Positions 3,473 to 39,100 of a stretch of DNA of 64,000 nt are shown piece after piece. A program made the translations under genes and the position numbers. Source of the DNA: Strigamia acuminata (taxonomy: Eukaryota > Arthropoda > Chilopoda > Geophilomorpha > Linotaeniidae); the NCBI GenBank assembly GCA_949358305.1, contig OX442314.1, positions 37,297,211-37,361,210 of the forward strand. The letters run 5' to 3'. Within the stretch, counting starts at the first letter, position 1. The number at the start of each line of letters is the position of its first letter. The notes beneath the pieces were generated by a model, which saw only the letters and a program-made list of their open reading frames with translations, did not search any database and was not told the origin of the DNA.

Positions 3473-4291
3473 TCAGAAGAAGACTTTGTTTCGGGTCACG
3501 CTATTATCTGCGTTCACCGTTGCAAAGAACTCTAGTAGTTGTCGCATCAGTTCTTGTTGTGATGGCGTCATATTATCATTTGCCATGGCCGTGCTAAAGT
3601 CAAATTGATCAACTCTATTTTCATCAAGCACGCCAGACTCAATTACATAAAAGGCCTTTGCGATTGCTGAGTTTTTTCCTAAATAGATTGTCTTTTTAGT
3701 TGGATTCGCAACTCGCAGAACTCCTTCACCTTTTCTGAATTTAGTCAATGTTTTGCAACAAATCACTCCAAAACGATCAATTACTCCACTGAGTGGTTCT
3801 ATAAAAAGTTCATCATCTACTTTCTTTGCAATTTTAATTGGAACTACACATTCATGTAATGCTGGAATTGTTATTGGTTTTAAAACTCGGGCTATGTAAT
3901 TTACATCAGTATGGTTCTTTGACATTGGGAAAACTTCTTGTTGTTCATCTTTTGGGCCTACAAAGATCTTCTGTTGGTCATAATCGAGTTTACACCTTGC
4001 AGATCTTAAGAAATTATCTCCCAGCAGTAAATGGCGTCCAAATCCATTAACGATCAATACGTCGATGGTGTGTTGTTGTTGTCCAACATCAATGGTAATC
4101 CTGGTTTTTCCTTCTGGGACTATCAATGAGCCATCCACAACTCTCAATCGAACACCTGGGCAGGGTTGATATTTGAGCTGCAGAGTTCTCACCAAATCTT
4201 CACTAATGATGTTGCGAAAACCTCCAGAATCCAAGACACCAGTAATTTCCATACCATTTAATACTACTGGAATCTGCAAAAGTTCATCCAT
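3473..4291 (-). CDS. Retroviral-type aspartic protease (Pro), end of frame
   Basis: Encodes the protease that would cut the Gag-Pro polyprotein. Near the N-terminus the active-site loop reads VLDSGGFRNIIS (the family norm is D-T/S-G-A), followed by typical retropepsin beta strands and HLLLGDNFL, matching the conserved ILGxDFL flap/helix region. The C-terminus ends in QQELMRQLLEFFATV, like the linker that precedes reverse transcriptase in gypsy polyproteins, then stops. There is an ATG at 4291, but the frame stays open upstream through the end of gag (4291-4375), so translation is more likely by -1 frameshifting from gag. The missing RT shows truncation just after the linker. Fold assignment is by motif only. 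Confidence 0.82.
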   Translation of the reverse strand: MDELLQIPVVLNGMEITGVLDSGGFRNIISEDLVRTLQLKYQPCPGVRLRVVDGSLIVPEGKTRITIDVGQQQHTIDVLIVNGFGRHLLLGDNFLRSARCKLDYDQQKIFVGPKDEQQEVFPMSKNHTDVNYIARVLKPITIPALHECVVPIKIAKKVDDELFIEPLSGVIDRFGVICCKTLTKFRKGEGVLRVANPTKKTIYLGKNSAIAKAFYVIESGVLDENRVDQFDFSTAMANDNMTPSQQELMRQLLEFFATVNADNSVTRNKVFF

Positions 4292-4362
4292 AGCGTGTAA
4301 CTCGATAATTTCTAATTTTCTCTTTCTTCTTTTCTTCTTGTTATTTCGTCTTTGTGGCCATT

Positions 4363-5448
4363 CTAGTTTCCCGATGGATTAGTTGGTCCACCACGTGGGG
4401 CTCCTCGATTTCCTCGGCCTCGGTAATTTTCAATAAAATTTTTACCTTTATAATTTGGATTTTTAGGATGGCCTTGGTTATTTGGATTCCCCTGTGGTCT
4501 TTGTCCTTGTGGTGGGTTCCATTGCTGTTGTAATTGTTGTTGTTGTTGTTGGAATCCTTGACCTTGATTATTCCACTGATCATTCCAATTGCCTCTGTTT
4601 TGACCTTTGTTGTTATTCCATCCTCTTCCTTGGTTCCACCATCCCCGTTGTTGTCCAGATCGTCCTCTAAAGTTGCCTCTATTGTAGAACTGGGCCTGGT
4701 TCGGATGTGGTGTATACCATTGGTTTTGGTAGAAAACGGGAGTAACCTCTGCATATTGAACTTCCCCAAACTGCTGCTGTTGTCTTAGCACTTTGACCTC
4801 TGCTAACAACTCGTCTTTTGACTTATTGACGTCGCTCGGTTCAACTAACAAACTTGGTTTCACCTCGCCTGTTGTATCAACAGCTTTTTGCAGTAGGGTT
4901 AGCAAAACTTCTGCAGGGTCCTCACTGAATGCATGAGCTTCCAATAGTCCAAGTTGAGATGTTAACTGATCCAATGTCTTTGGAAAATTGACTACCAATT
5001 TATCTCTAGTCACCTTTTTAAGTCCTTGAAACACATGAAATATCTTTTGTTCTTCAGTAAATGCTGGTCTCGCAAAAGAACATTCTTTTAATATTTTCTG
5101 CATATGTTCCAAAGCTGTCCCATCTTTGTGCTGCATTGCCTGTAATTTCGACAAAATTGTTGTTATTTGTCGTCTGAATTTTGCCTTCAACGCATCTTTC
5201 CATTGAATCCATGTTCTAGTCGGATGTTGTGGAAGTTGGTCTAGATACCACGATGATGCGGAGGATTTCAGCACAATTGATAGATGTTTAATTCTCTCGG
5301 TGTCATCGGCTATTGTATCTTCATATCCGATCAGCCATGTGTCAATATTTCCTGTCGCCGGATCAAAGTCAACTGGATTTCTTCTATTAACCACTAAATT
5401 TTGTAATACCGTCTGTATTGCTACAAGTTCTGGTGAAGCATTTGCCAT
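4363..5448 (-). CDS. Gag (capsid-type) protein of the gypsy element
   Basis: From the first ATG at 5448 the frame gives 361 aa. The central part shows the retrotransposon Gag signature (IDTWLIGYEDTIADD..., ASSWYLDQL, WKDALKAKFRR), the capsid-like helical domain. The C-terminal third is low-complexity, rich in Gly, Arg, Asn and Gln, and has no CCHC zinc knuckle, so RNA binding probably relies on RGG-like repeats. The same frame remains open for about 390 further bases upstream (to about 5836) and reads like protein (acidic and basic runs), yet holds no ATG; only TTG and other near-cognate codons occur. A spliced leader exon or non-AUG start could add this segment. The gag stop follows the slippery site. 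Confidence 0.85.
   Translation of the reverse strand: MANASPELVAIQTVLQNLVVNRRNPVDFDPATGNIDTWLIGYEDTIADDTERIKHLSIVLKSSASSWYLDQLPQHPTRTWIQWKDALKAKFRRQITTILSKLQAMQHKDGTALEHMQKILKECSFARPAFTEEQKIFHVFQGLKKVTRDKLVVNFPKTLDQLTSQLGLLEAHAFSEDPAEVLLTLLQKAVDTTGEVKPSLLVEPSDVNKSKDELLAEVKVLRQQQQFGEVQYAEVTPVFYQNQWYTPHPNQAQFYNRGNFRGRSGQQRGWWNQGRGWNNNKGQNRGNWNDQWNNQGQGFQQQQQQLQQQWNPPQGQRPQGNPNNQGHPKNPNYKGKNFIENYRGRGNRGAPRGGPTNPSGN
4366..4372 (-). promoter_or_regulatory. Probable -1 ribosomal frameshift site GGGAAAC
   Basis: The last gag codons read TCG GGA AAC TAG. G-GGA-AAC is a canonical X-XXY-YYZ slippery heptamer directly before the gag stop, and slipping back one base enters the protease frame, which is open across the overlap. 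I did not identify a convincing downstream pseudoknot by eye. Confidence 0.75.
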
Positions 5449-5836
5449 TTTAATTGGTGATTGTTCTTTATTTATACACAAATATGAAAGTTCTAAATTT
5501 GGTTGCTCCTCAACGTCTTGGAAAACGTCCTTCTCGTCTGCGTCGTCCTGATCACCCTGTTCTCGTATCAATAATTCTCCTAATTGCTCCACCTCGTGTG
5601 GGAACAATTCAGCTTGAAGATCAGCACTAACAACTCGTATTCGGTGCTGTTGCGGGGTTTCACCTTCCCTTTTTTGAGTTTTAAGTCCCTCTTTGGGTTT
5701 TGGCCCCCTATTTCGCTCAGTCACCTTGTCACTCAATGCTGTCTCTTCTTCCAACTCTTCTTCTTTCTTACTACCTGAGAGCAGGTAATCCGTTACGTAT
5801 TTTGAAAACGCGTAACGTCTAGAGTCCGCAATGATT

Positions 5837-6691
5837 TATTAATTGTAGAGAAGACACAATCCTTTGACTCGAAGCACTTTTAATTCACTTTTCCAGTTAT
5901 AAATAACACTATAACTTTTTAGCACACAAAACTCTTTTCACTTTCTGAAAAATAATTCAATAATTAAACACTTCAATTTTTACAGAAATGTTTCAAAACA
6001 CTAGAACAATTCAATAATTAAACAATTCAATTTTCACGGTCATAATTACAAAAATATCCAAAAAAAAAACGATTCATTTTCACGGTCATAATTACTAAAT
6101 TTCATCAAAACTATTCAAGGAAAAATTTCTTATTAATAACACTTTACAAAAATGCTCTGGAAAAAAAACAAATTCATTAATAACTATAAACAATATATTC
6201 TCTATTATTATCCAATTTTATCTCAACATCACAATTAAATTCCTTATTAACATACAATTTCATCAAATTTTATCAAAATTCAATCAATAATACTATATCA
6301 ATTCAATTCAAAGTCAAATATCACAGTAAATAACACTCAAATGCAAATTTATCCAATTTAAACACTCAAAACTTCTATTCTATTCTATTTTATTTTTTAG
6401 ACTTTGCCAATTTTCAATCTAATTGACCTATTTATTCACTAGCAATGACTCATTCTCACTTTCCTATCAGTTTCACAAATGAATCACTCATATTTAAATT
6501 AGTTTGGGATTTCTCTAAATTTTATATGATTTTCAAGGCTATTTTTAAGCTAAATTTGCCAATTTTATGTTATTTTAATTCTAATTTCACTCATTTTGCT
6601 CTAAATTTTACGATTTTTGATGATTTAACTCTAATTTTCGGGGTTTTTATTCTAATTTTGGTCTCGGCGAAAGAACCGCACCTCCACCATT
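5837..6691 (-). other. 5' leader of the gypsy element with primer-binding site
   Basis: AT-rich leader without a convincing frame. Next to the 5' LTR, two bases inside, the coding strand reads TGGTGGAGGTGCGG (complement of about 6676-6689), which begins with the TGG expected to pair with a tRNA 3' CCA end. I could not name the tRNA. Confidence 0.7.
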
Positions 6692-7935: not shown

Positions 7936-8896
7936 TTACAAAAGTTTACTCGCTGACCAAACAAAGCCCACAAAACAAACCGAACAACCAACAATCATAT
8001 AACTAACGAGCGAACTGAGTGGAATATAGTTCTTTCTAGCGTACACCTTCATCTCCCACAACGGCACACAAACGTGCAAAACATCCGGCAACATCAAATC
8101 AACGTCGCGCAGAACCTGATGCAACTCTCCTTCACCTCTGATCACATTGTGACCAAACTGGTCCGTCAACGACGTCACACAGTGCGAAACAGCGACCGAC
8201 AAAACCACCATCAACTTCCAGGGCGTCGTCGCTGTCTCCGCATCCGACAAATGCACGACAAAATACGTCGAAACCAGCTCGGTAACCGTGAAAAGCAACT
8301 GGTGCGTCCACTGGCGATAAAAATCGTCGTTCAGATAATTAAAATACGCCCACCAACTGTAATAATGCGGATAAAACGATGCGACGGTCAGAACAAACAT
8401 GGAGGCGCGTAATCGTCGGCGCACGATCAACCGACACATTTTGCGAATCGTCTCGTACAGAAGAAGGATCGCGACGATCGAAACCATCCAGATTTCGAGC
8501 GAATTACTCGTGATGTTGAAATAAACGTGTTTGTATCCGGGCACTCCCGACTCGTAGTTGGCTGAAGAAAAACAAGGATTTTGAACCATTTTGAACCATT
8601 TTGAACCATTTTGAACCATTTTAAAACATACCCTTGAACGTGGTGTCCCAGCAGTTGCATTTACACGTCGATCTGTTCACCGGACGCGTGTATTTGCTCC
8701 AGAGACTGTAAATAACGTCGAAATGAACGTACGGAATAAGGACGAAGATGGCCGTCGCGATGCACAAGCTGATTATCGTTTCGTAATCGTAATATTTAGA
8801 CGCGCGGTGAGATTTCTGTGCTCGCGTTAAGGTTAGTCCAGTGTTTGTATGTTTCGTCTCACGATATATCCTCAGAGTGTTTTCATCGCTCGTCAT
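7936..8896 (-). CDS. M1: six-pass membrane protein, intact, 296 aa
   Basis: Two exons, 8632-8896 and 7936-8561. The donor is GTATGT, the acceptor TTCTTCAG, the junction phase 1. The short intron holds four copies of AAAATGGTTC. Hydrophobic segments fall at about residues 40-65 (TIISLCIATAIFVLIPYV), 105-127, 142-165, 178-198, 208-230 and the C-terminus. A Cys-rich motif CKCNCWD precedes the second segment, and NIT is a possible glycosylation site. The family is not one I can name; it behaves like a conserved polytopic protein with several acidic/His loop residues. AATAAA overlaps the stop codon, so the 3' UTR should be very short. M1 lies downstream of A1 on the same strand, 254 bp away, the same order as in other repeats of this cluster. 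Confidence 0.82.
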
Positions 8897-9150: not shown

Positions 9151-10080
9151 TCAAGTATTTCGTGTCATCTTGTTATGTTGTTTGCAGCAATCCAAACACA
9201 ACTGAATCGTCGGTTTTCCGTCAACTAAACGAAGACACACACCAGGTTCCTCACCGGCTTCCATACGGCGTAGGAGTGTTTTTTGTGCTTTACAGGAAGC
9301 CCTCATTGATTCATCGTCTTGCAAAGCATTGAAAACCGTCGGATGCTTGGATAACTCTTTCCAAACACTTTCGCTTCCTCGTTTATATTTCTCAACTTCT
9401 TTTTGCAATTCGGCTTCGTCTCGTTCGAGTTGTAGCAATTCCTCGTCCATTTTTACAAACTTTACGCGATCTTCCGCTTCCTTAAGTTTTTTCTTTCTTC
9501 TTCTTTCGCGAGCTGCTATCGCTTGCTTAGACTGGCTCAAGACTCGTTTACCTCTCATCTCAACAATAGGAATAATAGGACAAACATCTGATAATTTCTT
9601 ATCAGAGTTTCCACTGAGATGTTCTGATCCAGAAGACTTTGTTGTTGGCCGTGGTACATGATTACCCTGTTTATCGTTTTCTGAAAATAGGTCGTTTAAG
9701 TCTAGGTAATTTTGGCTGGTAATTCAATTTCTGGACTCACTTTTTGCCGTGATTGTTTGCGCCTGCTTAGACTGACTCAAGACTCGTTTACCTTTCTTCT
9801 CAACAGTAGGAATAATAGGACGAGCTTTTGCTGACTTTCCATCACGCACTCGTTTCGTTTGTCTTGTTTTTGTCGCAGGAGTTGGAGCAACAGGTTTAGG
9901 ATTAACATTTGGCAATATTTCATTAGAGTTTCCATTGAGGGGTTCTGAGCCAGAAGACTTTGTTGTTGGCCATGGTACATCATAAAGGTAATTACCCTGT
10001 TTATTGTTTTCTGGAAATAGGTCGTTTAAGTCTAGGTAATTTTGGCTGGTAATTCAATTTTTGGACTTACTTTTTGGCAT
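9151..10080 (-). CDS. A1: bZIP-like protein, three exons, 269 aa
   Basis: Exons 10071-10080, 9741-10010 and 9151-9680 join in frame (810 nt including stop). Exon 1 carries only MPK plus one base, then GTAAGT; both 60-bp introns end TTTCAG or TTCCAG. Exons 2 and 3 start with the same sequence and are a tandem exon duplication, both phase 1-1. Exon 3 encodes the basic/coiled-coil region, SKQAIAARERRRKKK followed by heptads (LLQLERDEAELQKEVEKY), then FNALQDDES and a Cys-rich end CLDCCKQHN. The basic segment resembles a bZIP N-x2-AA-x3-R core with Gln in place of the invariant Asn. A nuclear DNA-binding role is inference. Its upstream TATA has changed (CTACATAAAC against CTATATAAAC in sister copies). 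Confidence 0.8.
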
Positions 10081-10330
10081 GATTAAGGATTATTTTGTTT
10101 GCTAAAATTCTAAAAGGTTTGGTCGATAAATCAGAGCTCAGGAGGAGAATAATCGCGGTGAAGAGCAGACGTCAGATGGCTCTATCTTCTCTGGACGATG
10201 TTTATGTAGTTCTGCATCAGGGAGATACGGGTAGCTCCAATCACAGCTCTCCACACATTTCAGCTGGAACCAACCAATGACGGCGCAGATATTACCTAGT
10301 GTGCTTCAAAACAGCTGATGTGGGTGTTTA
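10081..10330 (-). promoter_or_regulatory. A-type promoter and 5' UTR
   Basis: Copy of a promoter block found also at 19947-20230, 22456-22700, and inverted at 13380-13770. Reading toward A1 it holds a TATA-like CTACATAAAC (about 10200-10209), a CTGACGTCTG element containing a CRE-type GACGTC core (about 10168), and a leader ending in TTAATC before ATG. The TATA element carries a T-to-C change compared with the other copies. Confidence 0.7.
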
Positions 10331-10786: not shown

Positions 10787-11665
10787 TTATTCGCTGCGGA
10801 CTTTTTTCGGATTCGGTTGGTCGCCACCCGCTTCCGCTTTGCGTTTGTACGTGCTGGCTTCTCTGACCGCAGAAGCAAATTTCGATTTTGTCAATAAGTA
10901 GTCGCGTATCACCGCGAATTTCTCTTTTAATTCGCTGATCCTCATTTCGCAGTCGTTCAGCTCTTGCGCGAGATATTCAATTTGCTCCGTCCATAAGTTC
11001 AAAAAGTGCTTGTCCCACGCTTCTTTCCTTCGATAGTAATTCCTATTCCTGAAGGCACACTCGGCTCCTTTCGTCGGTCGTTCCTTTTCCTTATTCTTCG
11101 CTTCAGCATCTGGCGGCACCGCAGCGGAAACGTACACTTCTCGTACGTCGTCCGGTATTTGGGCGATATATTTCTCATAATCTTGAATCAGATCCATATC
11201 TTTACCAAATGCATCTGGATTGCATGCAAACAATTCTTTGCTGCTTTCTTCCTCTTCTTCTTCATCATCTTCATCTTCGAAAGTCGTAATAAGAGAGATG
11301 GTCGGTGATGAGACAAACTCGATTCCATCTAACGTCATCATTTGTTTGTGCAGCGCTGCATTCTCTTCGTCGTCATCTATCAAACCTTGCACGTATTCTG
11401 TGTCTGCGAGCAGTCGTGCCTCTCCGTTTAAACTCTTTTTAACTCTCTTCTTTTGTTCCAACACTGTTCTCGCCACAGCAAAAGTTTGCTCCTCAACTGA
11501 CTGCGTTCGCATCTTTGTGGTTTTACGGATCACTTTGGCATTTTCCTTCCGTTTAACCCTCTGCTTTTCCTTTTTCTCGGCTTTACTTAATTTTTCACCC
11601 CTTTTTGCTCGAGCCTGCATTGTTTCGTCCGTTGATTGTTGGTTGTATTCTGAATCGGAACTCAT
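10787..11665 (-). CDS. B1: acidic coiled-coil, possibly bZIP-like protein, 292 aa
   Basis: Single exon. The open frame extends 30 codons further up to 11755, but that start is TTG; the first ATG at 11665 (MSSDSEYNQQ) is preferred and leaves a leader of about 105 nt below a TATA box. The N-terminal third is very basic (KAEKKEKQRVKRKENAKVIRK), the middle has an acidic run (EDEDDEEEEEESS), and the C-terminus has FRNRNYYRRKEAWDKHF followed by a predicted coiled coil (EYLAQELNDCEMRISELKEK), an arrangement that recalls a divergent bZIP domain. The last residues are basic (PNPKKVRSE), a possible nuclear signal. Unrelated in sequence to A genes, but its pieces are fused to A and M pieces elsewhere in the cluster. 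Confidence 0.75.
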   Translation of the reverse strand: MSSDSEYNQQSTDETMQARAKRGEKLSKAEKKEKQRVKRKENAKVIRKTTKMRTQSVEEQTFAVARTVLEQKKRVKKSLNGEARLLADTEYVQGLIDDDEENAALHKQMMTLDGIEFVSSPTISLITTFEDEDDEEEEEESSKELFACNPDAFGKDMDLIQDYEKYIAQIPDDVREVYVSAAVPPDAEAKNKEKERPTKGAECAFRNRNYYRRKEAWDKHFLNLWTEQIEYLAQELNDCEMRISELKEKFAVIRDYLLTKSKFASAVREASTYKRKAEAGGDQPNPKKVRSE

Positions 11666-12095
11666 TGTCAAATAGATTGATCGATCAAAGATGAAATGAT
11701 CTGCTAAGCTAATTTCAACAAATTTATGTAAATACGAAGGAGACTTGTACGACAATGTTCACAAACAACTGATGATTTAATCAAACAATGTTGTGGGCTT
11801 ATATATCTCAAATAATGTCACGCCCGGTTTACGTGACGGGTCACTCGACCAATCATTGCCGAGTTGACCAATATGCCACACGGCACGTAGCATGGACGTG
11901 TGTGGCGCTCATTCCCTACATGCATTTGCCGTTTACACAATTTTGTATGGTTATAGACCATATTTTGCATGAATGTGGCTTCTACATTACGCAATATTAT
12001 TTTCTTGAAAAGGTTTTTGGTTTTTTTGATTCTCAATTTTGAGTTTTGTTATTCAGAGTTGTTCATTCTTTCACCGCTACCTGCTCATTTTGTTT
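11666..12095 (-). promoter_or_regulatory. B-type promoter
   Basis: TATATAAG at about 11798-11806 (read on the minus strand) sits some 30 bp before the inferred start near 11770. Upstream are ACGTGACGGGTCACTCG, with an ACGTGAC core favoured by bZIP factors, and a long conserved tract ending in the sequence GAGTTTTGTTATTCAGAG. Nearly the same promoter occurs at 14304-14650, and its distal part at 18050-18150. Confidence 0.7.
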
Positions 12096-12207
12096 GCTAG
12101 AATTCTAAAATGTTTGGTCGCTAAATTAGGGCTAAATGAAACAACAGTGATCGCGGTGAAGAGCGGACGACAGATGGCTCTATCTACTCGCGACGATGTT
12201 ACAAAAA
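12096..12207. other. Fragment of an A-type promoter/leader
   Basis: Diverged copy of the A leader (GCTAGAATTCTAAAATGTTTGGTCG, GAGCGGACGACAGATGG) abruptly joined to the truncated M2 exon 2. It marks a breakpoint. Confidence 0.65.
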
Positions 12208-12557
12208 CCGGGCACTCCCGACTCGTATTGGCTGCAGAAAAACAAGGATTTTTAAGCGTTTTTTCAATTTATTTCTTATTTTTAAAATATACCCTTGAAC
12301 GTGGTGTCCCAGCAGTTGCATTTACACGTCGATCTGTTCACCGGACGCGTGTATTTGCTCCAGAGACTGTAAATAACGTCGAAATGAAAGTACGGAATGA
12401 GGACGAAGACGGCCGTTGCTAGGCACAAGCTGACTGTCGTTTCGAAATCGTAATATTTCGACGCGCGAGGAGTTTTCTCTGCTCGCGTTGACGTCGGTCC
12501 AGTGTTTGTATGTTTCGTCTCACGATATATCCCCAGTGTGTTTTCATCGCTCGTCAT
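12208..12557 (-). pseudogene. M2: truncated membrane-protein copy
   Basis: Exon 1 (12293-12557) is intact, encodes the N-terminus, first membrane segment and CKCNCWD motif, and keeps a GTATAT donor. Exon 2 is cut to 24 bp (12208-12231), where CCAATACGAG lacks one base compared with M1, before running into A-promoter sequence. Five of the six membrane segments are lost, so it is a broken copy. Confidence 0.85.
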
Positions 12558-13080
12558 TGCGGAATGTTAGATTCTGTGTTTTCCCGACCGGTTCGACCGG
12601 GTGAATTACGTTTTAAGAAGTTGTCACTAGTTACCGAGACAAAACGGCAAGTACAGGAGATAGAGATTAAATAAACAAATAAAGATAATAGATAATAGAA
12701 AAATTTAATTTCTGACCAAAGCATTAAATTGAATTAATTTCGTCTTTATTCATCTGGTTAACACTAATAAATGAAAATAAAAATTGTGCAAACTTAATCC
12801 ATTATGTAAAATGCGAAAAATGAAGGTCAAGTATTTCATCTTTTCTTGTTACGTTGTTTGCAACAATTCAGACACAACCGAATTGTCGCTTTTCCGTCCA
12901 CCACATGACAACACACACCAGAAGTTTGACTTCTTTTCCCTCTAGATTCCTTATCCGTAAACCTTCGGAGCTTCGGACGAATCCTGGTGGACTAAATTCG
13001 ACAATTCCAACCGAAACCGAAAAAAGTCCGCAGCGAATAAGAAAAAAGACAGACGACGAGGATAATTTCGAAAAATAGCA
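12558..13080. pseudogene. A 3' remnant joined to an inverted B 3' end
   Basis: 12558-12839 is the M upstream spacer. From about 12840 to 12975 the minus strand holds a diverged A C-terminus (the region encoding CLDCCKQ). It then joins plus-strand sequence matching the end of B1 (AGTCCGCAGCGAATAAGAAA and the downstream GACGACGAGGATAA), i.e. the B end lies in the opposite orientation. The junction is one edge of the inverted duplication that ends near 14.2 kb. Confidence 0.75.
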
Positions 13081-13505
13081 AAAAATAAAAATTTAAAGTG
13101 TTGATACGAAATATTGCCTCCCGAAATAAATACCGATACCGAATTTAGTTTATTAATTCATCCGACTTCTATATCCTTGCTAGGAAATACTGATGGTAGC
13201 GCCATCGCGCGGCTGACTGGGCAATCACATTTCTGTTTTTGACGTAGAACGACGTGTAAAGAGAATAATCCGAGACAATTAAAATAATTAATAAAATGTT
13301 ATGAATTCGTGATTTGATTTATTAATTTTTTCTACCTTCGATTAAATATGTTAGGTTCACAAAACTTACAAAAAGTGTCTAAACACCCACATCAGCTGTT
13401 TTGAAGCACACTAGATGGTATCTGCGTCGTCATTGGTTGGTTCCAGCGGAAATGTGTGGAGAGATGTGATTGGAGCTACCCGTATGTTCCTGATGCAGAA
13501 CTATA
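13080..13505 (+). repeat. Inverted copy of the intergenic block and A promoter
   Basis: Reverse-orientation copy of 10200-10780, including the GATGG-N5-CCATC motif and ACGTC cores. It reads into the plus-strand A-type promoter at 13.65 kb. Confidence 0.8.
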
Positions 13506-13646
13506 CTCTTTCCACACTCAAGGTTGACCCTGGAAGCTGGGCTCCCATTGGCCTACTTAGAACTGCAATGTAACTATATAGCATTGCATTTCTAAGTAGG
13601 CCAATGGGAGCCCAGCTTCCAGGGTCAACCTTGAGTGTGGAAAGAG
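13506..13646. mobile_element. 141-bp palindromic MITE inserted in a TATA box
   Basis: Two arms of about 65 bp are nearly perfect reverse complements (CTCTTTCCACACTC... and ...GAGTGTGGAAAGAG) around a short centre at 13571-13581. It is flanked by TATA on both sides (13502-13505 and 13647-13650). Sister promoters read AACTATATAAAC without interruption, so the empty site is known and the target duplication is TATA (or TA). It could fold into a long hairpin by itself. Confidence 0.9.
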
Positions 13647-13771
13647 TATATATAAACGTTGTCCAGAGAAGATAGAGCCATTTGACGTCTGCTCTTCACC
13701 GCGATCACTCCTGAGCTCTGATTTATCGACCAAACCTTTTAGAATTTTAGCAAACAAAATAATCCTTAATC
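13640..13771 (+). promoter_or_regulatory. Plus-strand A-type promoter and leader
   Basis: GTATATATAAACG at 13645-13657 rebuilds a TATA box beside the inserted MITE. The leader that follows (AGAGAAGATAGAGCC, TTTGACGTCTGC, GCGATCACTCCTGAG) matches the minus-strand A leaders. Transcription starting near 13680 would run through both arms of the inverted repeat at 13700-14203. Confidence 0.65.
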
Positions 13772-14203
13772 ATGGCAAAAAGTAAGTCCAGAAATTGAAT
13801 TACCAGCCAAATTACCTAGACTTAAACGACCTATTTCCAGGAAACAATAAACAGGGTAATTACCTCTATCATGTACCATGGCCAACAACAAAGTCTTCTG
13901 GATCAAAACACCTCGGTGGAAACTGCGATAAGAAATTATCAGACGTTTGTCCTATTCTTCCTACTCCTGAGACGAAAGGTAAACGGACTAAACGAGTCTT
14001 GTGCGAGTCTTGCTTAGACTGGCACAAGATGGTACATGATAGAGGTAATTACCCTGTTTATTGTTTCCTGGAAATATCTCGTTTAAGTCTAGGTAATTTT
14101 GGCTGGTAATTCTGGACTTACTTTCTGCCATGATTACGGATTATTTTGTTTGCTAAAATTCTAAAAGGTTTGGTCGATAAATCAGAGCTCAGGAGTGATC
14201 GCG
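13700..14203. repeat. Inverted repeat of A promoter and first exons
   Basis: Left arm 13700-13879 and right arm 14029-14203 are about 175-180 bp and closely complementary, covering leader, ATG, exon 1, intron 1 and the start of exon 2. Nearer the centre, 13998-14010 pairs with 14015-14028 (CTTGTGC type), giving an apical stem above an internal loop. A transcript from either side would fold into a long double strand carrying sense and antisense A-gene sequence. Confidence 0.85.
13772..14109 (+). pseudogene. Truncated A-type gene on the plus strand
   Basis: Exon 1 13772-13781 (ATGGCAAAAA then GTAAGT) and exon 2 13841-14109 join in frame to 92 codons. The first part is A-like (KSSGS, PTPETKGKRTKRVLCES); after the centre of the inverted repeat the frame reads antisense sequence and stops at 14107. 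The bZIP-like region is missing. It may be a transcribed noncoding hairpin rather than a protein gene. Confidence 0.6.
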
Positions 14204-14650
14204 AAGAATAGATTGTCAAATAGATTGATCGATCAAAGATGAAATGATCTGCTAAGCTAGTTTCAACAAATTTATGTAAATACGAAGGAGACTTGTACGA
14301 CAATGTTCACAAACAACTGATGGTTTATTCAAACAATATTGGGGGCTTATATACCTCAAATAATGTCACGTACGGTATATATACGTGACGGGTCACTAGA
14401 CCATTCATTGTCGAGTTGACCAATATGCCACACGGCACGTAGCATAGACGTGTGTGGCGGTCATTCCCTACATGCATGTGCCATTTACATACTTTTGTAT
14501 AGTTATAGACCATATTTTGCATGAATGTGGCTTCTACATTACGCAATATTATTTTCTTGAAAAGCTTTTTGGTTCTTGACTATAATTTTGAGTTTTGTTA
14601 TTCAGAGTTGTTCATTCTTTCACCGCTACCTGCTCACGTCACGCGTGGAT
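14119..14650 (-). promoter_or_regulatory. B promoter fused to A leader and exon 1
   Basis: On the minus strand a B-type promoter (GTATATAAG near 14346-14354, distal tract to 14650) is followed by B leader, which at about 14210 switches to the A leader (GATCACTCCTGAGC) and A exon 1 (ATG at 14131, donor GTAAGT). The B start ATG is lost. Transcripts from here would enter the inverted repeat from the right. Confidence 0.7.
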
Positions 14651-15289
14651 TGTTATGTTAACATTGAAACGTGATTGTCCATGGAACCGCGCGATGGCGC
14701 CGCCATCAGTATTTCCCAGCATGCCATGCAAGCAATGTCCAACGTGGATCTCGACGTGATTCTGCTCACTCTTCGACTCTGTGAAAACCGACACGCTTTT
14801 ACATGTTTATTCATTGATTTTTATTGTTGTTTGTAATAATTTGAATTTGATGAGTTATTAATTTTGATTGTGTTGTATTTTAATTCCTCTAAAATTGTAT
14901 TTTGTTTATTTGGAAGTGGTTACCCCTCACCTTGAATTGTTATCTCTCTCTTCTTAGAACTCACCTAATTGCCAATGTGCCATCAATTATCTGGTGCTCC
15001 CCTTTTGGAGCACGTCATCGCTTGTCCATGTGCTTTACTTTATAGCATGGATTTTTTAGTCATTTCACTTTTGTATTTAATTATCGTTGTTTTAAAAAAA
15101 GAATAAACTTAGTCTTGAAGAAGTTGTTGAACATACAAGTCACGTTTTTCATTTCTCAAAATCTACATTTTAATTTGAAGTCGCTATTGTTATTCAGGGA
15201 ACTAATCAATTATCCGCAATACCTTTATTGCATTTCAAAGACTCCAATTTAATTTGCTTTTATCTTAAAGGTGTCCAAAAAGGTCCAAA
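14651..15289. other. Intergenic, partial motif copy
   Basis: Near 14689 a variant GCGCGATGGCGCCGCCATCAG keeps the GATGG-N5-CCATC arrangement. The rest (14760-15289) is AT-rich and holds nothing I recognise. Confidence 0.6.
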
Positions 15290-15610
15290 AACCCTTTAAA
15301 ACAGATTTTAAGGATCGTAATTAAAAATAAAACTAAATAAAAAAGAAAAAATCAATTCCCATGAAAATTGTAATTTGAAAAATGCCCATTTTAGAAACAA
15401 ATGCCCAGCATCCCACCAGAGGGCGCAACGTCACGCTGGTGTAAAATATTTTGAAGTTTTGAAAATGTGGAAAAGTGCAGGATTTGACGAGACTCGCTGT
15501 TATAATACAGCTGAAATGAAGGTCAAGTAATTCATGTTTCACTGTTATGTTGTTTGCAACAATCTAGACACAGCAGAATTGTTGCTTTTCCGTTTACCAC
15601 ATGCACACTG
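15290..15610 (-). pseudogene. Duplicate of the A6 downstream flank with A C-terminus
   Basis: 15290-15510 matches 23290-23510 closely (shared AGAGGGCGCAACGTCACGCT, GAAAATGTGGAAAAGTGCAG). It continues into a diverged A C-terminal segment at about 15530-15610 encoding the CLDCC region. The remainder of that A copy is absent. Confidence 0.75.
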
Positions 15611-17141: not shown

Positions 17142-17987
17142 TCAAGTATTTCGTGTTATCTTGTTAGGTTGTTTGCAGCAATCCAAACACAACCGAATCG
17201 TTGATTTTCCGTTTGCTACATGAACACACACACCCATTTCGCTTCCAGGTTCCTCATCGGCTTCCGTACAGCGTCGGAGTCTTTTTTGTGCTTTAAAAGA
17301 AGCCCACAATGATTCGTCGTCTTGCAAAGCATTGAATAGCAACGGATTCTGCTCGGATATCTCTTTCCGAATACATTCGCTTTTTCGTTTATATCCCTCA
17401 ATTTTCTGTCGCATCTCGGTTTCTTCTCGTTCGAGTTGTTGCAATTCCTCTTCCATTTTTTCCAACGTCCTGCGATCTTCCTCGTCCTGAAGTTTCTTCC
17501 TTCTCCTGATCTCGCGAGCTGCTTGCGCTTGCTTAGACTGGCACAAGACTCGTCTAGTCCGTCGACCTTCCGTCTCAGGAGTAGGAAGAATAGGACAAGG
17601 GTTTGCTGACTTTCCATCACACACTCGTCTCGTTTGTCTTCTTTTTGTCGCAGGAGTTGGAGCAACAGGGATAGGACAATCATTTGGCAATATTTCATTA
17701 GAGTTTCCATTGAGGTTTTCTGAGCCTGGAGGTTTTGTTGCCTGGAGTAATTGCGCTACTTCAGTTATTGGTACATAATAAATGCAAATCCCCTGTTCGT
17801 TACAAACTTCAACTAGGTCGTTTTGGTCATAGGTAATTTCGGTTTCTGGTAATTCAATTTGTTTATCCAAAGCGTCGTGGAGCCCTTGTGAATTTAAATT
17901 GGTTGGTTCGATTGAAGTGGCAACTAAATTATTCGAGGGCTCGTTTTCATCGTCTGCTGATGAATGCTTGTAGGTAGAATTTTCCAT
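17142..17987 (-). CDS. A3: bZIP-like protein, single exon, 281 aa
   Basis: Intact single-exon member. Residues 1-90 are acidic and specific to the A3/A6 subtype (MENSTYKHSS..., ICIYYVPITEVAQLL). Residues 100-150 are Pro/Thr/Arg-rich (APTPATKRRQTRRV, PTPETEGRRTRRV). Then comes a bZIP-like segment at about 155-220: SKQAQAAREIRRRKK, with Gln at the position of the invariant bZIP Asn, followed by a Leu/Met/Ile heptad coiled coil. FNALQDDES and the C-terminal CLDCCKQ are shared with A1. Part of its coding sequence (QIELPETEITYDQNDL) aligns at DNA level with the introns of A1. A nuclear regulator is the best inference; no experimental homologue comes to mind. Confidence 0.82.
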   Translation of the reverse strand: MENSTYKHSSADDENEPSNNLVATSIEPTNLNSQGLHDALDKQIELPETEITYDQNDLVEVCNEQGICIYYVPITEVAQLLQATKPPGSENLNGNSNEILPNDCPIPVAPTPATKRRQTRRVCDGKSANPCPILPTPETEGRRTRRVLCQSKQAQAAREIRRRKKLQDEEDRRTLEKMEEELQQLEREETEMRQKIEGYKRKSECIRKEISEQNPLLFNALQDDESLWASFKAQKRLRRCTEADEEPGSEMGVCVHVANGKSTIRLCLDCCKQPNKITRNT

Positions 17988-18619: not shown

Positions 18620-19946
18620 TTCTTATTTGCTGCGGACTTTTTTCGGAATCGGTTGGTCGCCACCCGCTTCCGCTTTGCGTTTGTACGTGCTGGCTTCTCT
18701 GACCGCAGAAGCAAATTTCGATTTTGTCAATAAGTAGTCGCGTATCACCGCGAATTTCTCTTTTAATTCGCGGATCCTCATGTCGCAGTCGTTCAGCTCT
18801 TGATTGAGATATTCAATTTGCTCCGTTTATAAATTCAAAAAGTGCTTGTCCCACGCTTCTTTCCTTCGATAATAATTCCTATTCCTGAAGGCACACTCGG
18901 CTCCTTTCGTTGGTCGTTCCTTTTCCTTATTCTTTGCTTCAGCATCTGGCGGCACCGCAGCGGAAAAATACACTTCTCGTACGTCCTCCGGTATTTGGGC
19001 GATATATTTCTCATAATCTTGAATCAGATCCATATCTTTACCAAATGCATCTGGATTGCATGCAAACAATTCTTTGCTGCTTTCTTCCTCTTCTTCTTCA
19101 TCATCTTCATCTTCATCTTCGAAAGTCGTAATGAGAGAGATGGTCGGTGATGAGACAAACTCGATTCCATCTAACGTCATCATTTGTTTGTGCAGTGCTG
19201 CATTCTCTTCGTCGTCATCTATCAAACCTTGCACGTATTCTGTGTCTGCGAGGAGTCGTGCCTCTCCGTTTAAGCTCTTTTTAACTCTCTTCTTTTGTTC
19301 TAACACTGTTCTCGCCACAGCAAAACTTTGCTCCTCGACTGACCGCGTTCGCATCTTTGTGGTTTTACGGATCACTTTGGCATTTTCCTTCCGTTTAACC
19401 CTCTGCTTTTCCTTTAGCTCGGCTTTACTTAATTTGTCATTTCTTTTTGCTCGAGTCTGCATTGTTTCGCCCGTTGGTTGTTTAAAGGAAACCCTCATTG
19501 ATTCATCGTCTTGCAAAGCATTGAAAAGCGACGGATTCTCGAATGACTCTTCCTGAATACATTTGCTTCCTCGTTTATCTTCCTCAATTTTCTGTTGCAT
19601 CTCGGCTTCTTCTCGTTCCTCGTCCATTTTTTCCAACAATTTGAGATCTTCCTCTTCCTGTAGTTTTTTCTTTCTTCTAAACTCGCGAGCTGCTTGCGCT
19701 TGCTTAGACTCACACAAGACTCGTTTAGTCTATTTACCTTTCGTCTCAACAGTAGGAATAATAAGACAAACGTCTGATAATTTCTTATCGCAGTTTCCAC
19801 TGAGATGTTCTGATCCAGAAGACTTTGTTATTGGCCATGATACATGATAGAGGTAATTACCCTGTTTATCAGTTTCCTGAAAATAGATCGTTTTAGTCTA
19901 GGTAATTTTGGCTGGTAATTCAATTTCTGGACTTACTTTCGGCCAT
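18620..19946 (-). pseudogene. A4::B2 chimera, disrupted
   Basis: An A-type front (exon 1 19937-19946, exon 2 from 19876) is fused within an open frame at about 19490 to B sequence (…RVSFKQPTGETMQTRAKR), so the A coiled coil runs straight into the B basic N-terminus. It carries at least three lesions: an extra T near the start of exon 2 that creates TGA, a TAG where sisters have CGG (at about 19731), and a TAA where B1 has Trp (NLW to NL-stop, about 18829) that removes the last 77 or so residues. The 296-codon open stretch between the last two may still be translatable, but I call it a pseudogene. Confidence 0.8.
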
Positions 19947-20230
19947 GATTGAGGATTATTTTGTTTGCTAAAATTCTAAAAGGTTTGGTCGATAAATCAG
20001 AGCTCGGGAGTGATCGCGGTGAAGAGCAGACGTCAGATGGCTCTATCTTCTCTGGACGATGTTTATATAGTTCTGCATCAGGAACATACGGGTAGCTCCA
20101 ATCACAGCTCTCCACACATTACTGCTGGAACCAACCAATGATGGCGCAGATACCACTTAGTGTGCTTCAAATCAGCTGATGTGGGTGTTTAGACAATTTT
20201 TGTAAGTTTTGTGAACCTAACATATTTAAT
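19947..20230 (-). promoter_or_regulatory. A-type promoter of the A4 chimera
   Basis: Intact CTATATAAAC at 20061-20070 on the minus strand and the CTGACGTCTG element, with leader as in the other copies, before ATG at 19946. Confidence 0.7.
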
Positions 20231-20506: not shown

Positions 20507-21317
20507 CTATTTTTTAAAATTATCTTCGCCGTCTGTCTTTTTTCTTATTCGTTGCGGACTGTTTTCGGTTTCGGATGGTCGCCACCCGCTTCCGCTTTGC
20601 GTTTGTACGTGCTGGCTTCTCTGACCGCAGAAGCCAATTTTGATTTTGACGAAACGACCATCAACTTCCAGGGCGCCGTCGCTCTCTCCGCATCCGACAA
20701 ATGCACGACAAAATACGTCGAAACCAGCTCGGTGACCGTGAAAAGCAACTGGTGCGTCCACTGGCGATAAAAATCGTCGTTCCAATAATTAAAAAACATC
20801 CACCAACTGTAATAATGCGGATAAAACGATGCGACGGTCAAAACAAACATGGAGGCGCGTAATCAACACATTTTGCGAACCGTCTCGTACAGAAGAAGGA
20901 TCGCGACGATCGAAACCATCCAGATTTCGAGCGAATTACTCGTCACGTTGAAATAAACGTGTTTGTATCCGGACACTCCCCTCTCGTAGTTGGCTGCAGA
21001 AAAACAAGAATTTTGAACCATTTTGAACCATTTTGAACCATTTTAAAACATACCCTTGAACGTGGTGTCCCAGCAGTTGCATTTGCACGTCGATCTGTTC
21101 ACCGGACGCGTGTATTTGCTCCAGAGACTGTAAATAACGTCGAAATGAACGTACGGAATGAGGACGAAGACGGCCGTTGCTAGGCACAAGCTGACTGTCG
21201 TTTCTAAATCATAATATTCGACGCGCGGTGAGTTTTCTCTGCTCGCGTTGACGTCGGTCCAGTGTTGGTACGTTTCGTCTCACGATATATCCTCAGAGTG
21301 TTTTCATCGCTCGTCAT
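20507..21317 (-). pseudogene. M3::B fusion, disrupted
   Basis: M exon 1 starts at 21317 but lacks one A in the codons for ASKYYDY, shifting the frame to a TAG. Exon 2 has a small deletion in the region encoding RRRLR and then, after WKLMVV (about 20655), passes in frame into the B C-terminus (KSKLASAVREASTYKRKAEAGG). The fusion leaves a 101-codon frame at 20545-20850. Introns are as in M1 and hold AAAATGGTTC repeats. Confidence 0.82.
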
Positions 21318-21578
21318 TGTGGAATGTTAGATTCTGTGTTCTCCCGACCGGTTCGACCGGGTGAATTACGTTTTAAGAAGTTGTCACTAGTTGCCGAGAC
21401 AAAACGGCAAGCATAGGAGATAGAGATAAAATAAACAAATAAAGATAATAGATAATAGAAAATTTTAATTTCTGACAAGTGCAAAGCATTAAATTGAATT
21501 AATTCACTAATAAATAAAAATAAAAATTGTGCAAACTTATTCCATTATGTAAAATGCGAAAAATGAAGATCAAGTATT
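21318..21578 (-). other. Copy of the M upstream spacer
   Basis: Fourth copy of the 8897-9150 spacer, between M3 and A5. Confidence 0.8.
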
Positions 21579-22455
21579 TCATCTTTTCTTGTTATGTTGT
21601 TTGCAGCAATCCAAACACGACCGAATCGTTGCTTTTCCGTCTACCACATGAACACACACACCAGAAGTTTGACTTCTTTTCCTTCTAGATTTCTCATCCT
21701 TCCTTCGGAGCTTTTTTTGTGCTTTAAAAGAAGCCCTCAGTGACTCATCGTCTTGCAAAGCATTGAACAGCAACGGATTCTTGGATAACTTGTTTCGAAT
21801 ACATTCGCTTCCTCGTTTAGATTCCGCAATTTTCCGTTGCAATTCGGCTTCGTCTCGTTCGATTTGTTGCAATTCCTCGTCCATTTTTCCCAACGTCCTG
21901 CGATCTTCCTCGTCCTTAAGTTTTTTCTTTCTTCTTGCTTCGCGAGCTGCTTGCGCTGGCTTAGACTGACACAACTCTCGTTTAACTTTCGTCTCAGGAG
22001 TAGGAATAATAGGACAAACATCTGATAATTTCTTATCGCAGTTTCCACTGAGGTGTTCTGATCCAGAAGACTTTGTCGTTGGCCGTGGTACATGATAGAG
22101 GTGAATATCCTGTTCATCGTTTCCTGGAAATAGGTCGTTTAAGTTTAGGTAATTTTGACTGGCAATTCAATTTCTGGACTTACTTTCTGCCGTGATTGTT
22201 TGCGCCTGCTTAGTCTGGCTCAAGACTCGCCCAGTCCGTCTCGTTTTCGTCTCAGGAACGGTAGCAACAGGTTTAGGACCAACATTTGACAATTCTCCAT
22301 CAGTTTCCATTGAGGGGTTCTGATCCAGAAGACTTTGTTGTTGGCCGTGGAGCATGATAGAGGTGAATATCCTGTTTATCGTTTTCTGGAAATAGGTCGT
22401 TTAAGTCTAGGTAATTTTGGCTGGTAATTCAATTTCTGGACTTACTTTTTGCCAT
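21579..22455 (-). CDS. A5: bZIP-like protein with a disrupted optional exon
   Basis: Same architecture as A1: exon 1 22446-22455 (ATGGCAAAAA), exon 2 22200-22385, exon 3 21579-22123. Exon 2 has a small deletion after LNGN that produces TGA TGG in frame, so including it ends translation early. Because exons 2 and 3 both have phase-1 borders and near-identical acceptors, skipping exon 2 restores an intact 184-aa protein with the SKPAQAAREARRKKK basic segment, coiled coil and CLDCCKQ end. The C-terminal region has an extra basic patch (RRKDEKSRRKRS). Whether the exon is skipped cannot be told from sequence. Confidence 0.65.
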
Positions 22456-22730
22456 GATTAAGGATTATATTGTTTGCTAAAATTCTAAAAGGTTTGGTCG
22501 ATAAATCAGAGCTTAGGAGTGATCGCTGTGAAGAGCAGACGTCAGATGGCTCTATCTTCTCTGGACGAAGTTTATATAGTTCTAGGTAGCTCCAATCACA
22601 GCTCTCAACACATTTCCGCTGGAACCAACCAATGACGGCGCAGATACCATCTAGTGTGCTTCAAAACAGCTGATGTGGATGTTTAGACAATTTTTGTAAG
22701 TTTTGTGACCTTAACATATTTAATTGCTTT
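22456..22730 (-). promoter_or_regulatory. A-type promoter of A5
   Basis: ACTATATAAA at 22571-22580 on the minus strand, CTGACGTCTG downstream, leader of about 90 nt to ATG at 22455. A short deletion follows the TATA compared with the A4 copy. Confidence 0.7.
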
Positions 22731-23534: not shown

Positions 23535-24377
23535 TCATGTTTCATTGTTATGTTGTTTGCAACAATCCAGACACAACATAATTGTTGCTTTTCCGTCCAC
23601 CACATGCAGACACACACCCATTTTACGTCTTTTCCATCCAGGTTCCCCATCGGCATCCATACAGCTTCGGAGCCTTTTTTGTGCTTTAAAAGAAGCCCTC
23701 AATGATTCGTCGTCTTGCAAAGCATTGAATAGCAACGGATGATTCTCGGATAACTCTTTCCGAATACATTCGCTTTCTCGTTTACATTCCTCAATTTTCT
23801 GTTGCATCTCGGTTTCTTCTCGTTCGAGTTGTTGCAATTCCTCATCCATTTTTTCCAACGTCCTGCGATCTTCCTCGTCCTGAAGTTTCTTCCTTCTCCT
23901 GATCTCGCGAGCTGCTTGCGCTTGCTTAGACTGGCACAAGACTCGTCTAGTCCGTCGACCTTCCGTCTCAGGAGTAGGAAGAATAGGACAAGCTTTTGCT
24001 GACTTTCCATCACACACTCGTCTCGTTTGTCTTGTTTTTGTCGCAGGAGTGGGAGCAACAGGGATAGGACAATCATTTGGCAATATTTCATTAGAGTTTC
24101 CATTGAGGTCTTCTGAGCCTGGAGGATTTGTTGCCAGGAGTAATTGCGCTACTTCAGTTATTGGTACATAATAGATGCAAATTCCCTGTTCGTCGTAAAC
24201 TTCAACTAGTTCGTTTTGGTCATAGGTAATTTCGGTTTCTGGTACCGGTAATTCAATTTGTTTATCCAAAGCGTCGTCGAGCACTTGTGAATTTAAACTG
24301 GTTGGTTCGATTGAAGTGGCAATTAAATTATTCGAGGGCTCGTCTGCTGGTGAATGCTCGTAGCTAGAATTTTCCAT
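23535..24377 (-). CDS. A6: bZIP-like protein, single exon, 280 aa
   Basis: Intact single-exon sister of A3 with the same order: acidic N-terminus (MENSSYEHSP), ICIYYVPITEVAQLL, Pro/Thr/Arg-rich middle, SKQAQAAREIRRRKK basic segment, heptad coiled coil (LEKMDEELQQLEREETEMQQ), FNALQDDES, an inserted basic RKMG, and CLDCCKQHN. It differs from A3 mainly by scattered substitutions and small in-frame indels (for example PVPETE against PETE), a pattern suggesting selection on protein rather than decay. It has its own TATA promoter, different from the A1-type promoter. Confidence 0.83.
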   Translation of the reverse strand: MENSSYEHSPADEPSNNLIATSIEPTSLNSQVLDDALDKQIELPVPETEITYDQNELVEVYDEQGICIYYVPITEVAQLLLATNPPGSEDLNGNSNEILPNDCPIPVAPTPATKTRQTRRVCDGKSAKACPILPTPETEGRRTRRVLCQSKQAQAAREIRRRKKLQDEEDRRTLEKMDEELQQLEREETEMQQKIEECKRESECIRKELSENHPLLFNALQDDESLRASFKAQKRLRSCMDADGEPGWKRRKMGVCLHVVDGKATIMLCLDCCKQHNNET

Positions 24378-25176: not shown

Positions 25177-26155
25177 TTATAAAAATCTACTCGATGTCCA
25201 AACGACAATTACAAAACAAACCGAACAACCAAACATCACATTACTAACGACCGAACAAACTGCAACGTATTTCTTCCGAGCGTACACTTTCATCTCCCAC
25301 AATGGCACACACACGTGCAAAACATCCGGCAACATCAACCCAACGTCGCGCAGCACCTGATGCAACATTCCTTCACCTCCGATGACATTGTGACCAAACT
25401 GGTCCGTCAACGACGTCACACAGTGCGAAACAGCGACCGACAAAACCACCATCAACTTCCAGGGCGCCGTCGCTCTCTCCGCATCCGACAAATGCACGAC
25501 AAAATACGTCGAAACCAGCTCGGTGACCGTGAAAAGCAACTGGTGCGTCCACTGGCGATGAAAATCGTCGTTCCAATAATTAAAAAACATCCACCAACTG
25601 TAATAATGCGGATAAAACGATGCGACGGTCAAAACAAACATGGAGACGCGTAATCGTCGGCGCACGATCAACCGACACATCTTGCGAATCGTCTCGTACA
25701 GAAGAAGGATCGCGACGATCGAAACCACCCAGATTTTGAGCGTATTACTCGTGATGTTGAAATAAACGTGTTTGTATCCGGGCACTCCCCTCTCGTAGTT
25801 AGCTGCGGAAAAACAACGATTTTAAATCGTTTTTCGATTTATTTTTATTTTTAGAGTATATACCCTTGAACGTGGTGTCCCAGCAGTCGCATTTACACTT
25901 GGATCTGTCCACCAGACGATTGTATTTGCTCCACAAGCTGTAAACAACGTTGAAATGAATGTACGGGGTGAGTACGAAGAAGGCCGTCGCGAAGCACAAG
26001 CTGATTATCGTTTCGTAATCGTAATATTTCAACGCGCGGTGAGTTTTCTCTGCTCGTGTGGACGTCGGTCCAGTATTAGCAGCTGGGAAAAGATCTTTCG
26101 TCTCCCGATTTAACTTTTGAGTGTTTATTTCGTACTGGAATGTTTGATTCTGCAT
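25177..26155 (-). CDS. M4: six-pass membrane protein, intact, 305 aa
   Basis: Exons 25864-26155 and 25177-25802 join at phase 1, exactly as in M1 (second exons are both 626 bp). The N-terminal 30 residues differ completely from M1 (MQNQTFQYEINTQKL against MTSDENTLRIY), while the rest is about the same length and closely similar: CKCDCWDTTFK, YKHVYFNITSN, FYPHYYSWW, WTHQLLFTVTELVS, WKLMVVLSVAVSH. It may be the parent copy at the end of the cluster. Substitutions are mostly conservative and no stop is present. AATAAA follows the stop immediately. No A-type gene precedes it. Confidence 0.83.
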
Positions 26156-37346: not shown

Positions 37347-39100
37347 ATGCATTTCACTTTAACATTTCTCCTTTTCGTCGGTCTGTCGACGTCGTCTTGC
37401 GGGGTGCCGTTGCCGCATCCGAACTCGCTGGATGAATCAATTCCCCGATACATGTTGCGCTTGTACGAACAAATCACCAAAGGAATAAACCCTGGAAAAT
37501 GTGGATACAATACCGTGAGGAACCTTAAAAACCTCGGTAAGTTCAACAACTTTCGCTTTTACATTTAGTTTTAACGTCAAATCGCCTTTCCCCCGTGTTT
37601 TTCACGTTAAACCACCATTTTCAAAGTGTTTTTCACGTTAAATCGTCATTTTCAAGCCGGTTTTCACGTTAAATCACCATTTCCAAAGTGTTTTTCACGT
37701 TAAATTGCTATTTTCAAGGTGTTTTTCACGCTAAATCGCCATTTCCAATGTGTTTTTCACGTTAAATCGCCATTATCAAGGTGTTTTTCACGTTAAATCG
37801 TCATTTTCAAGTCGGTTTTCACGTTAAATCACCATTTCCAAAGTGTTTTTCACGTTAAATTGCTATTTTCAAGGTGTTTTTCACGTTAAATAGCAATTTC
37901 CAATGTGTTTTTCACGTTAAATCGCCATTTTCAAAATGTTTTTCACGTTAAATCGCCATTTTCAAGGTGTTTTTCACGTTAAATCGCTACCATTTTCAAT
38001 ATGCTTTTCACGTTAATTTACGTTTTTTACATAAAATCGACGTTTTCCACGTTAAATAAACGTTTTTCACGTTAAATAGCAGTTTTTCACGTAAAAATAT
38101 AGATTTTTAACATAAAAAATAGACGTTTTTCACATAAACTCGACGTTTTTCACGTAAAATTCGCCGTTAAACCAACTCTTTTCTCCGTGTTTTCCCCATT
38201 AATTCGACGTTAACTTTGATTTCAGGTAACCCGGTGACATGTGAGGAGTACCAATTACGTTTCAACTTGTCCTCGATTCCAAACGATGATGGAAACATCC
38301 TCCGAGCGGCCCGAATCCATTTGGAGCTGACAAAAGACTTGTCCGATTGGCGCGCCGAATCCTTCTTCACGCGCACCACTTTCCGCCTCCACCTGGGCCA
38401 CGGGGCCCAAAAGGGACGCGCCATACAATGCGAAAACGAGCCCCGACCGGGCATCCGAGACATAGTATTCAACATCACGCAATTCCTCCAAAACACGCAG
38501 AAAAATCGCCCGCAATATCTCAATCTCACACTGGTAAACGAAAAAATCCCAAAAATGCAAATTTTTCACAAATTTTTCATATTTTTTTCCAATTCAAATT
38601 TCCAGATGATTGACGGCGAGCCGCCATTGCCAGCCTGTCCGCCGGACACGGTCAATTTCGAAGCCATGCTGGAAATGGAGACGTCTTCTCTGGAGCAAAT
38701 AAAGTGCAACCACGGAGACGAAACGAGTCCGAAACGGCGCAAACGATCGGCGCGCGCCGTCGCGAATAACGTTAAAATGGCGAGCGGAGTTTGTCAGCGG
38801 TATCCGCTGTCCATCAGCTTCCGGGACATCGGCTGGGACAATTGGATCGTGGCGCCGGCGACGTACAATGCGTATTTTTGCAGCGGGACGTGCCCGTTTC
38901 CGATCAACGATCATTTGAATGCGTCCAATCACGCCGTGGTGCAGAACCTGGTGCATTCGTTTCAGCCGAAAAACGTTCCGCCCGCGTGTTGCGCGCCGAC
39001 TAAGTTGGCGCCGATGTCGATGCTTTATTACGAGCATAACAGTTCGTTGATTCTCAAGACGTATGAAGATATGGTGGTCGACGAATGCGGCTGTCAATAG
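37347..39100 (+). CDS. Divergent BMP2/4-class TGF-beta ligand, 330 aa
   Basis: Secreted dimeric growth factor of the BMP group. Exons 37347-37536, 38226-38533 and 38606-39100 join in phase 1 then phase 0 (993 nt with stop). Residues 1-19 form a signal peptide (MHFTLTFLLFVGLSTSSC). The propeptide is short, about 225 residues, with MLRLYEQI and FNLSSIPNDD typical of BMP propeptides. A furin-type site RRKR lies before the mature part. The mature domain has the seven-cysteine pattern: CQRYPLSISF, GWDNWIVAP, CSGTCPFP, SNHAVVQNLVH, ACCAPTKL, EDMVVDECGCQ. It resembles BMP2/4 but has Ala in CCAP and DECGC at the end, as in some ADMP, Vg1/GDF1 and BMP9/10 types, so orthology is open. Intron positions match the neighbouring BMP2/4 gene. 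AATAAA at 39260. Confidence 0.9.
37570..38165. repeat. 30-bp array in intron 1
   Basis: Repeats of TTTTTCACGTTAAATCGCCA plus a ten-base spacer, about 30 bp in all, with CACGTTAA conserved. It fills the intron of the first BMP gene. Confidence 0.9.

Follow-up and report, generated by a model that had tools for sequence, protein, structure and literature searches.

Within a tandem gene array of the centipede Strigamia acuminata, a disrupted A-family gene forms a candidate hairpin-RNA locus amid its possible targets

The window analysed here, by which we mean the whole stretch of 64,000 nucleotides at C1:37,297,211-37,361,210, comes from a Strigamia acuminata genome of 237.5 Mb in 157 contigs and contains a tandem B-A gene array. 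As judged from its homologies, the locus described here is a broken A-family gene within this array, accompanied by a second A 5' end in inverted orientation. The remaining A and B genes that were seen in the window are encoded by the minus strand. The features used in the argument are the following.

9151-10208, minus strand: gene A1, with a reading frame that is intact once two predicted introns are removed
12500-12977, minus strand (native orientation): A gene 3' end and the DNA that follows it, the other side of the broken copy, matching 21260-21713 at 88%
13007-14010, plus strand: inverted block, MITE-like element included, opposite to the remaining A and B genes seen
13504-13648, no strand assigned: MITE-like palindrome of 145 bp (TACTC...GAGTA), with TA duplicated at 13502-13503 and 13649-13650
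13649-13655, plus strand: TATATAA of the A-type core promoter, re-formed at the right end of the MITE-like element
13692-13879, plus strand: arm 1, comprising A leader, exon 1 (ATG at 13773), intron 1 (13783-13839) and the start of exon 2, sense to A
about 13997-14029, no strand assigned: apical stem, seen in the sequence, the folds and the alignment
14029-14211, minus strand: arm 2, the 5' end of the broken A gene, in the minus orientation native to the array
14212-14636, minus strand: B-type promoter with its leader, directed into arm 2, matching 11664-12087 at 93%
14315-14320, minus strand: initiator-like TCAGTT, 33 nt downstream of the B-type TATA box (start to start)
14347-14353, minus strand: B-type TATATAA
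17142-17987 and 23535-24377: two intact A genes of the 280-aa type
18827-20069, minus strand: A4, an A 5' end fused to a B body, with stops in the A frame from the A start
21579-22578, minus strand: A5, with a stop in early exon 2 and a frame that is open later

Read from the A start codon, both A4 and A5 meet stops in early exon 2; A4 also holds a 296-aa open frame that joins the A coiled coil to B. In A1 and A5, an exon 1-like sequence, the intron and exon 2 are internally duplicated, giving predicted three-exon genes. We label A bZIP-like on the basis of a basic-region-like motif spotted by eye; in PDB, what the A profile matched best (E 0.002) was a helical stretch of GDAP1 rather than a bZIP. 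None of the A, B or membrane-protein ORFs scored above a family cut-off in Pfam, NCBIfam or PDB, where only weak matches were found. The membrane-protein-like genes or fragments, also labelled by eye, repeat between A and B (7936-8896, 12282-12557, 20545-21340 and 25177-26155) and have a 73% identical relative at C9:11.83 Mb. Outside the window, A-like sequences occur at C1:35.30 Mb (two genes in opposite orientations), at C6:7.38 Mb (49% amino acid identity) and, weakly, at C6:8.68 Mb (33%, E 6.5e-4).

Elsewhere in the window, minus-strand ORFs at 3473-5754 match a gag-type aspartyl protease above the cut-off and a Ty3 capsid below it. A TGF-beta mature domain at 38216-39100, nearest to the BMPs, is followed downstream on the same strand by a propeptide match (42486-43118), and thus perhaps two ligand genes adjoin the array. 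A phage search found nothing, and a sigma-70 promoter scan is unsuited to a genome of this type.

The two ends of the broken A gene lie at 14029-14211 (5') and 12500-12977 (3', with its coding end at about 12817-12977). The block at 13007-14010 contains a B 3' end, intergenic DNA and then the A promoter, leader, exon 1, intron 1 and early exon 2, and it matches 20578-20066 (91%) and 20069-19706 (93%) in the opposite orientation. By the homology map, one A gene is thus broken, with its two ends on either side of a 1-kb inverted block. At the apex, both arms end within a few bases of one point in A exon 2 (CTTGTGC.AGTCT) and then resume, and about 117 bp kept by arm 1 (13880-13996) are missing from arm 2. 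Because the centre of the palindrome falls at a single homologous point, fold-back synthesis with a deletion near the centre is suggested; a plain inversion would call for two coincident breakpoints. The hairpin would most likely have been born by fold-back template switching or by local inversion, presumably followed by the ~117-bp deletion beside the centre and by the insertion of the MITE-like element.

That the locus contains an inverted repeat, as the first-pass annotation had claimed, was confirmed by both alignment and folding. The arms, which indeed span A leader, exon 1, intron 1 and early exon 2, are 92.6% identical (175 matches in 189 columns of the gapped alignment). They resolve into a 102-nt piece (13692-13793/14110-14211, 95%) and a 71-nt piece (13809-13879/14029-14099, 97%) with a 15-nt segment at 100% between them, and they contain perfect duplex runs of 66, 48 and 21 nt. 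The apical stem, placed at 13998-14028 from the letters alone, was recovered at about 13997-14029. A plus-strand RNA of 13672-14230, in which arm 2 is antisense to A, has a folding energy of -340.9 kcal/mol, whereas shuffled versions average -124.0 (sd 5.7; z -38) and 0/100 of them fold as well, and a minus-strand RNA of 14340-13650 folds at -372 against -152.5 for shuffles (0/20 equal). Both strands fold far below their shuffled controls, and chance is excluded for the hairpin. The locus has a long inverted repeat able to form the extended duplex that characterises the hpRNA class of Drosophila. Membership of a known RNA family was rejected, an Rfam search of 12500-15500 at gathering thresholds having returned 0 hits.

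A scan of the window for foldbacks of at least 60 nt with a spacing of up to 1 kb found, besides this hairpin and the MITE-like element, one 66-nt pair (85%) at 40-41 kb. The comparison set comprised 57 records (255,616 bases), overlapping and chosen by homology, not random, and the filter drops some self-palindromes: three records (L010, L015 and L026) carry the MITE-like element unseen by it. In this set, foldbacks of at least 150 nt besides the hairpin and MITE copies were an A pair in L029 and self-palindromic or repeat-array matches in L016, L019, L026, L029 and L036. The pair in L029 (C1:35294000-35303999, at 4291-4713 and 5581-5997) is a second inverted A-family gene pair, divergent (427 nt, 86%, spacer 868), which recurs in the overlapping records L044, L048, L049 and L052. 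It, too, is a possible source of dsRNA.

The palindrome upstream of the hairpin was rejected as a part of the hairpin gene, since it is an interspersed MITE-like repeat. It is a young MITE-like element, presumably of the Tc1/mariner kind: short and with no evident coding sequence, it has terminal inverted repeats, a target-site duplication, many copies and empty sites in paralogs. The 149 bases at 13502-13650 occur in at least 40 places in the genome, this one included, at 98-100% identity (40 scored of 379 candidates), 13 of the 40 scored copies being 100% identical, the window's own counted, and the ends read TATA in 20/20 loci (L009-L028, among which L021 is the window's own). The palindrome, the TA duplication and the near-identical copies are those of TA-target MITEs; this applies solely to the insertion at 13504-13648, whereas the A hairpin is not a MITE.

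This insertion bears directly on the A-type promoter. The element sits inside the A-type TATA box, where A1, A4 and A5 carry the empty site, and it has displaced the upstream A promoter DNA by 147 bp from the TATATAA at 13649. An A-type TATA promoter had been proposed at 13645-13657, and a TATATAA is indeed present there; however, the box is the 3' junction of the element and the DNA that should lie upstream has been separated from it. No match to a TCAGTY or TCATTY initiator was found near 13680 on the plus strand. Since the TATA region is split and an initiator match is absent, a plus-strand promoter of A type is doubtful. In addition, if the arm 1 intron were spliced out of a plus transcript, the duplex would be interrupted.

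The second promoter that had been proposed, a B-type promoter reading in from the right, is present and better preserved than the A-type one. Its homology to the B gene, across 14212-14636, stops at the B start codon. Its TCAGTT resembles the initiator motif. From the initiator to the B start codon, the leader differs from that of the B gene at 1/109 positions (108/109 identical), in contrast to 26/312 in the DNA upstream of the initiator (Fisher p 0.005). The equivalent comparison of A-type leader plus intron with upstream DNA gave p values of 0.09, 0.60 and 0.04 for arm 1 against A1, A4 and A5, and hence no consistent effect. We consider the B-type promoter a better candidate than the A-type for transcription of the hairpin, which would then run on the minus strand. 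Within this promoter, a 4-nt insertion at 14361-14398 creates a small palindrome and an extra TATATAT. To its right sits an interspersed repeat (14777-15239) found in at least 37 other places (75-96%; 40 scored of 137 candidates), which looks like a solo LTR as several copies are paired about 5.9 kb apart.

We then compared the arm 21-mers with predicted RNAs of five genes: A1, A4, A5 and the two at 17142-17987 and 23535-24377. In mature RNAs, perfect matches to arm 2 numbered 42/163 for A1, 42/163 for A4 and 24/163 for A5, and those to arm 1 numbered 51/168, 43/168 and 27/168, respectively. Matches to mature mRNA are limited because the arms are mostly leader and intron; in unspliced precursors the counts were 56, 49 and 38 (of 163) for arm 2 and 70, 56 and 74 (of 168) for arm 1, the last, for A5, being the highest. 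The expectation that the dsRNA would match A1 and A5 was correct for both genes, which match perfectly, but not for those alone: matches to mature A4 RNA nearly equal those to A1 and exceed those to A5. The two intact 280-aa-type genes were rejected as targets, with 0 arm 21-mers matching either even when two mismatches were allowed. The hairpin thus has extensive complementarity to specific genes, A1, A4 and A5, among the five examined. By these matches, A1 would be a likely target of a hairpin RNA, and A4 and A5 possible ones.

Our best reading is that the locus represents a candidate hpRNA born by rearrangement, with the layout of hp-pncr009 and the 825-Oak genes. The intact-looking B-type promoter (14353-14320) would probably drive minus-strand transcription across the two arms, which would pair in the RNA over about 180 bp; Dicer could cut this dsRNA into siRNAs, and these may silence A1, A4 and A5 through their leaders and early exons. 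The locus would then act as a young hpRNA amid its targets, by accident or by selection. We place this course, from transcription at the B-type promoter to siRNAs against A1, A4 and A5, slightly short of an even chance, and regard the production of siRNAs from the hairpin in some tissue as nearly a toss-up. That the locus is a selected silencer we consider unlikely. The genome holds one exon match to the Dicer-dimer domain (34.2 bits against a cut-off of 23.7), a match that does not tell which Dicer it belongs to. Among the matches listed by a literature search, none describes the locus or an hpRNA of the A family, which is weak evidence of absence.

The strongest alternative is that the locus is an inert relic, in which the instability of the array left an inverted repeat, devoid of any RNA role, in a broken pseudogene. 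The array itself contains fusions and fragments, such as the A/B fusion in A4 and a 114-bp A relic at 12087-12200, and the A-type TATA box and initiator are compromised as described above. Such a relic is also consistent with the divergence of the arms, which are about as close to their paralogs as to each other. In the arm core (13700-13879, which leaves out the outer bases 13692-13699 with their three arm-arm differences, and also the additional partial copies that A1 and A5 contain), the arms differ at 4/174 positions plus indels of 6 nt and 1 nt, and arm 1 differs from A1, A4 and A5 at 6/180, 9/180 and 11/180. Across all arm columns, edges included, arm 1 differs from arm 2, A1, A4 and A5 at 12/187, 5/187, 9/187 and 11/184. 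The two arms share no derived site that sets them apart from A1, A4 and A5, and a tree of arms and paralogs contained no arm-arm clade (support 40-72). Very recent copying from arm to arm is thus not supported by the 4/174 differences, the two indels and the want of an exclusive site. Early exon 2 taken by itself, with 0/40 differences between the arms and 2-8/40 between arm 1 and the paralogs, leans towards a common origin of the arms. Because arm-arm divergence is close to arm-paralog divergence in a young family, the arms would pair largely for that reason; and with arm-arm divergence near that of arm 1 and A1, no exclusive site and no clade, we see no clear sign of selected pairing. Against the relic explanation stands the almost unchanged state of the B-type TATA, initiator and leader. 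We judge it a real contender, held at somewhat less than even.

Alternatively, the locus could be a short protein gene, in which arm 1, spliced at 13783/13839, would encode an A protein that is cut short and ends in a novel tail, and that perhaps competes with the full-length form. Starting from the ATG at 13773, the spliced frame stays open across the A portion and on into the loop and arm 2, and its splice sites correspond in the alignment to those in A1 and A5. However, the tail comes from antisense A sequence, the bZIP-like coiled-coil half is absent and the promoter is split by the MITE-like element, all of which make a protein product improbable. Finally, inverted repeats inside tandem arrays are hard to assemble, and a fold-back read might have been incorporated in the contig, but the arms of such a read would be near-identical whereas these carry substitutions and indels, and their flanks are different genes (an A promoter with the MITE-like element versus a B promoter), so that an assembly artefact is very improbable.

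The candidate hpRNA reading can be set beside known systems. Work on Drosophila describes hp-pncr009, hp-CR32207 and hp-CR32205 as hpRNAs interspersed with 825-Oak target genes, proposes their birth via transcription across divergently oriented family members, and reports siRNAs and Dcr-2 dependence (PMC10317233). Like these, our hairpin is made from pieces of a local multigene family and lies amid possible targets; in contrast, there is one hairpin here and the gene family is of another kind. The original analogy was to Nmy and Dox, a comparison that would imply selfish target genes. A long hairpin with promoter-like flanks that matches nearby genes is present, but the layout fits 825-Oak better than Nmy. 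The arms of Nmy and Tmy reportedly derive from the Dox target family. In D. simulans, Nmy and Tmy are newly emerged hairpins that silence Dox genes (PMC10292708). They share with our locus a newly emerged hairpin and family-matched target genes; they differ in resting on genetic proof and in having X-linked driver targets. Furthermore, the present hairpin sits amid its predicted targets, whereas validated hpRNA-target pairs are genomically distant according to PMC10317233. The same paper places D. simulans hp58 one gene away from its progenitor and attributes a ballchen-linked hpRNA to partial 5' duplication (PMC10317233); on that account both adjoin their progenitors, as our hairpin does, but here the progenitor is a broken copy and the hairpin has been joined to the promoter of a second gene, B.

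A more specific proposal, which we think rather unlikely, is that the locus could be a newborn hpRNA in an animal other than Drosophila, which arose by fold-back in a fast-changing bZIP-like array and captured the promoter and leader of the neighbouring B gene. Its siRNAs would then be produced wherever B is expressed and would restrain A genes, an intragenomic conflict seen at the birth of a hairpin. On this proposal, the other inverted pair of A genes, at C1:35.3 Mb, would be a parallel case. If no siRNAs are made, the locus would be a useful example of how array rearrangement produces functionless hairpins. If they are made, a hairpin locus would have been caught soon after its birth among its targets, with the rearrangement still legible: the broken gene, the captured promoter and the comparison of arm with target could all be read in one place. 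The locus would then test the generality of hpRNA birth from multigene arrays, which is documented in Drosophila.
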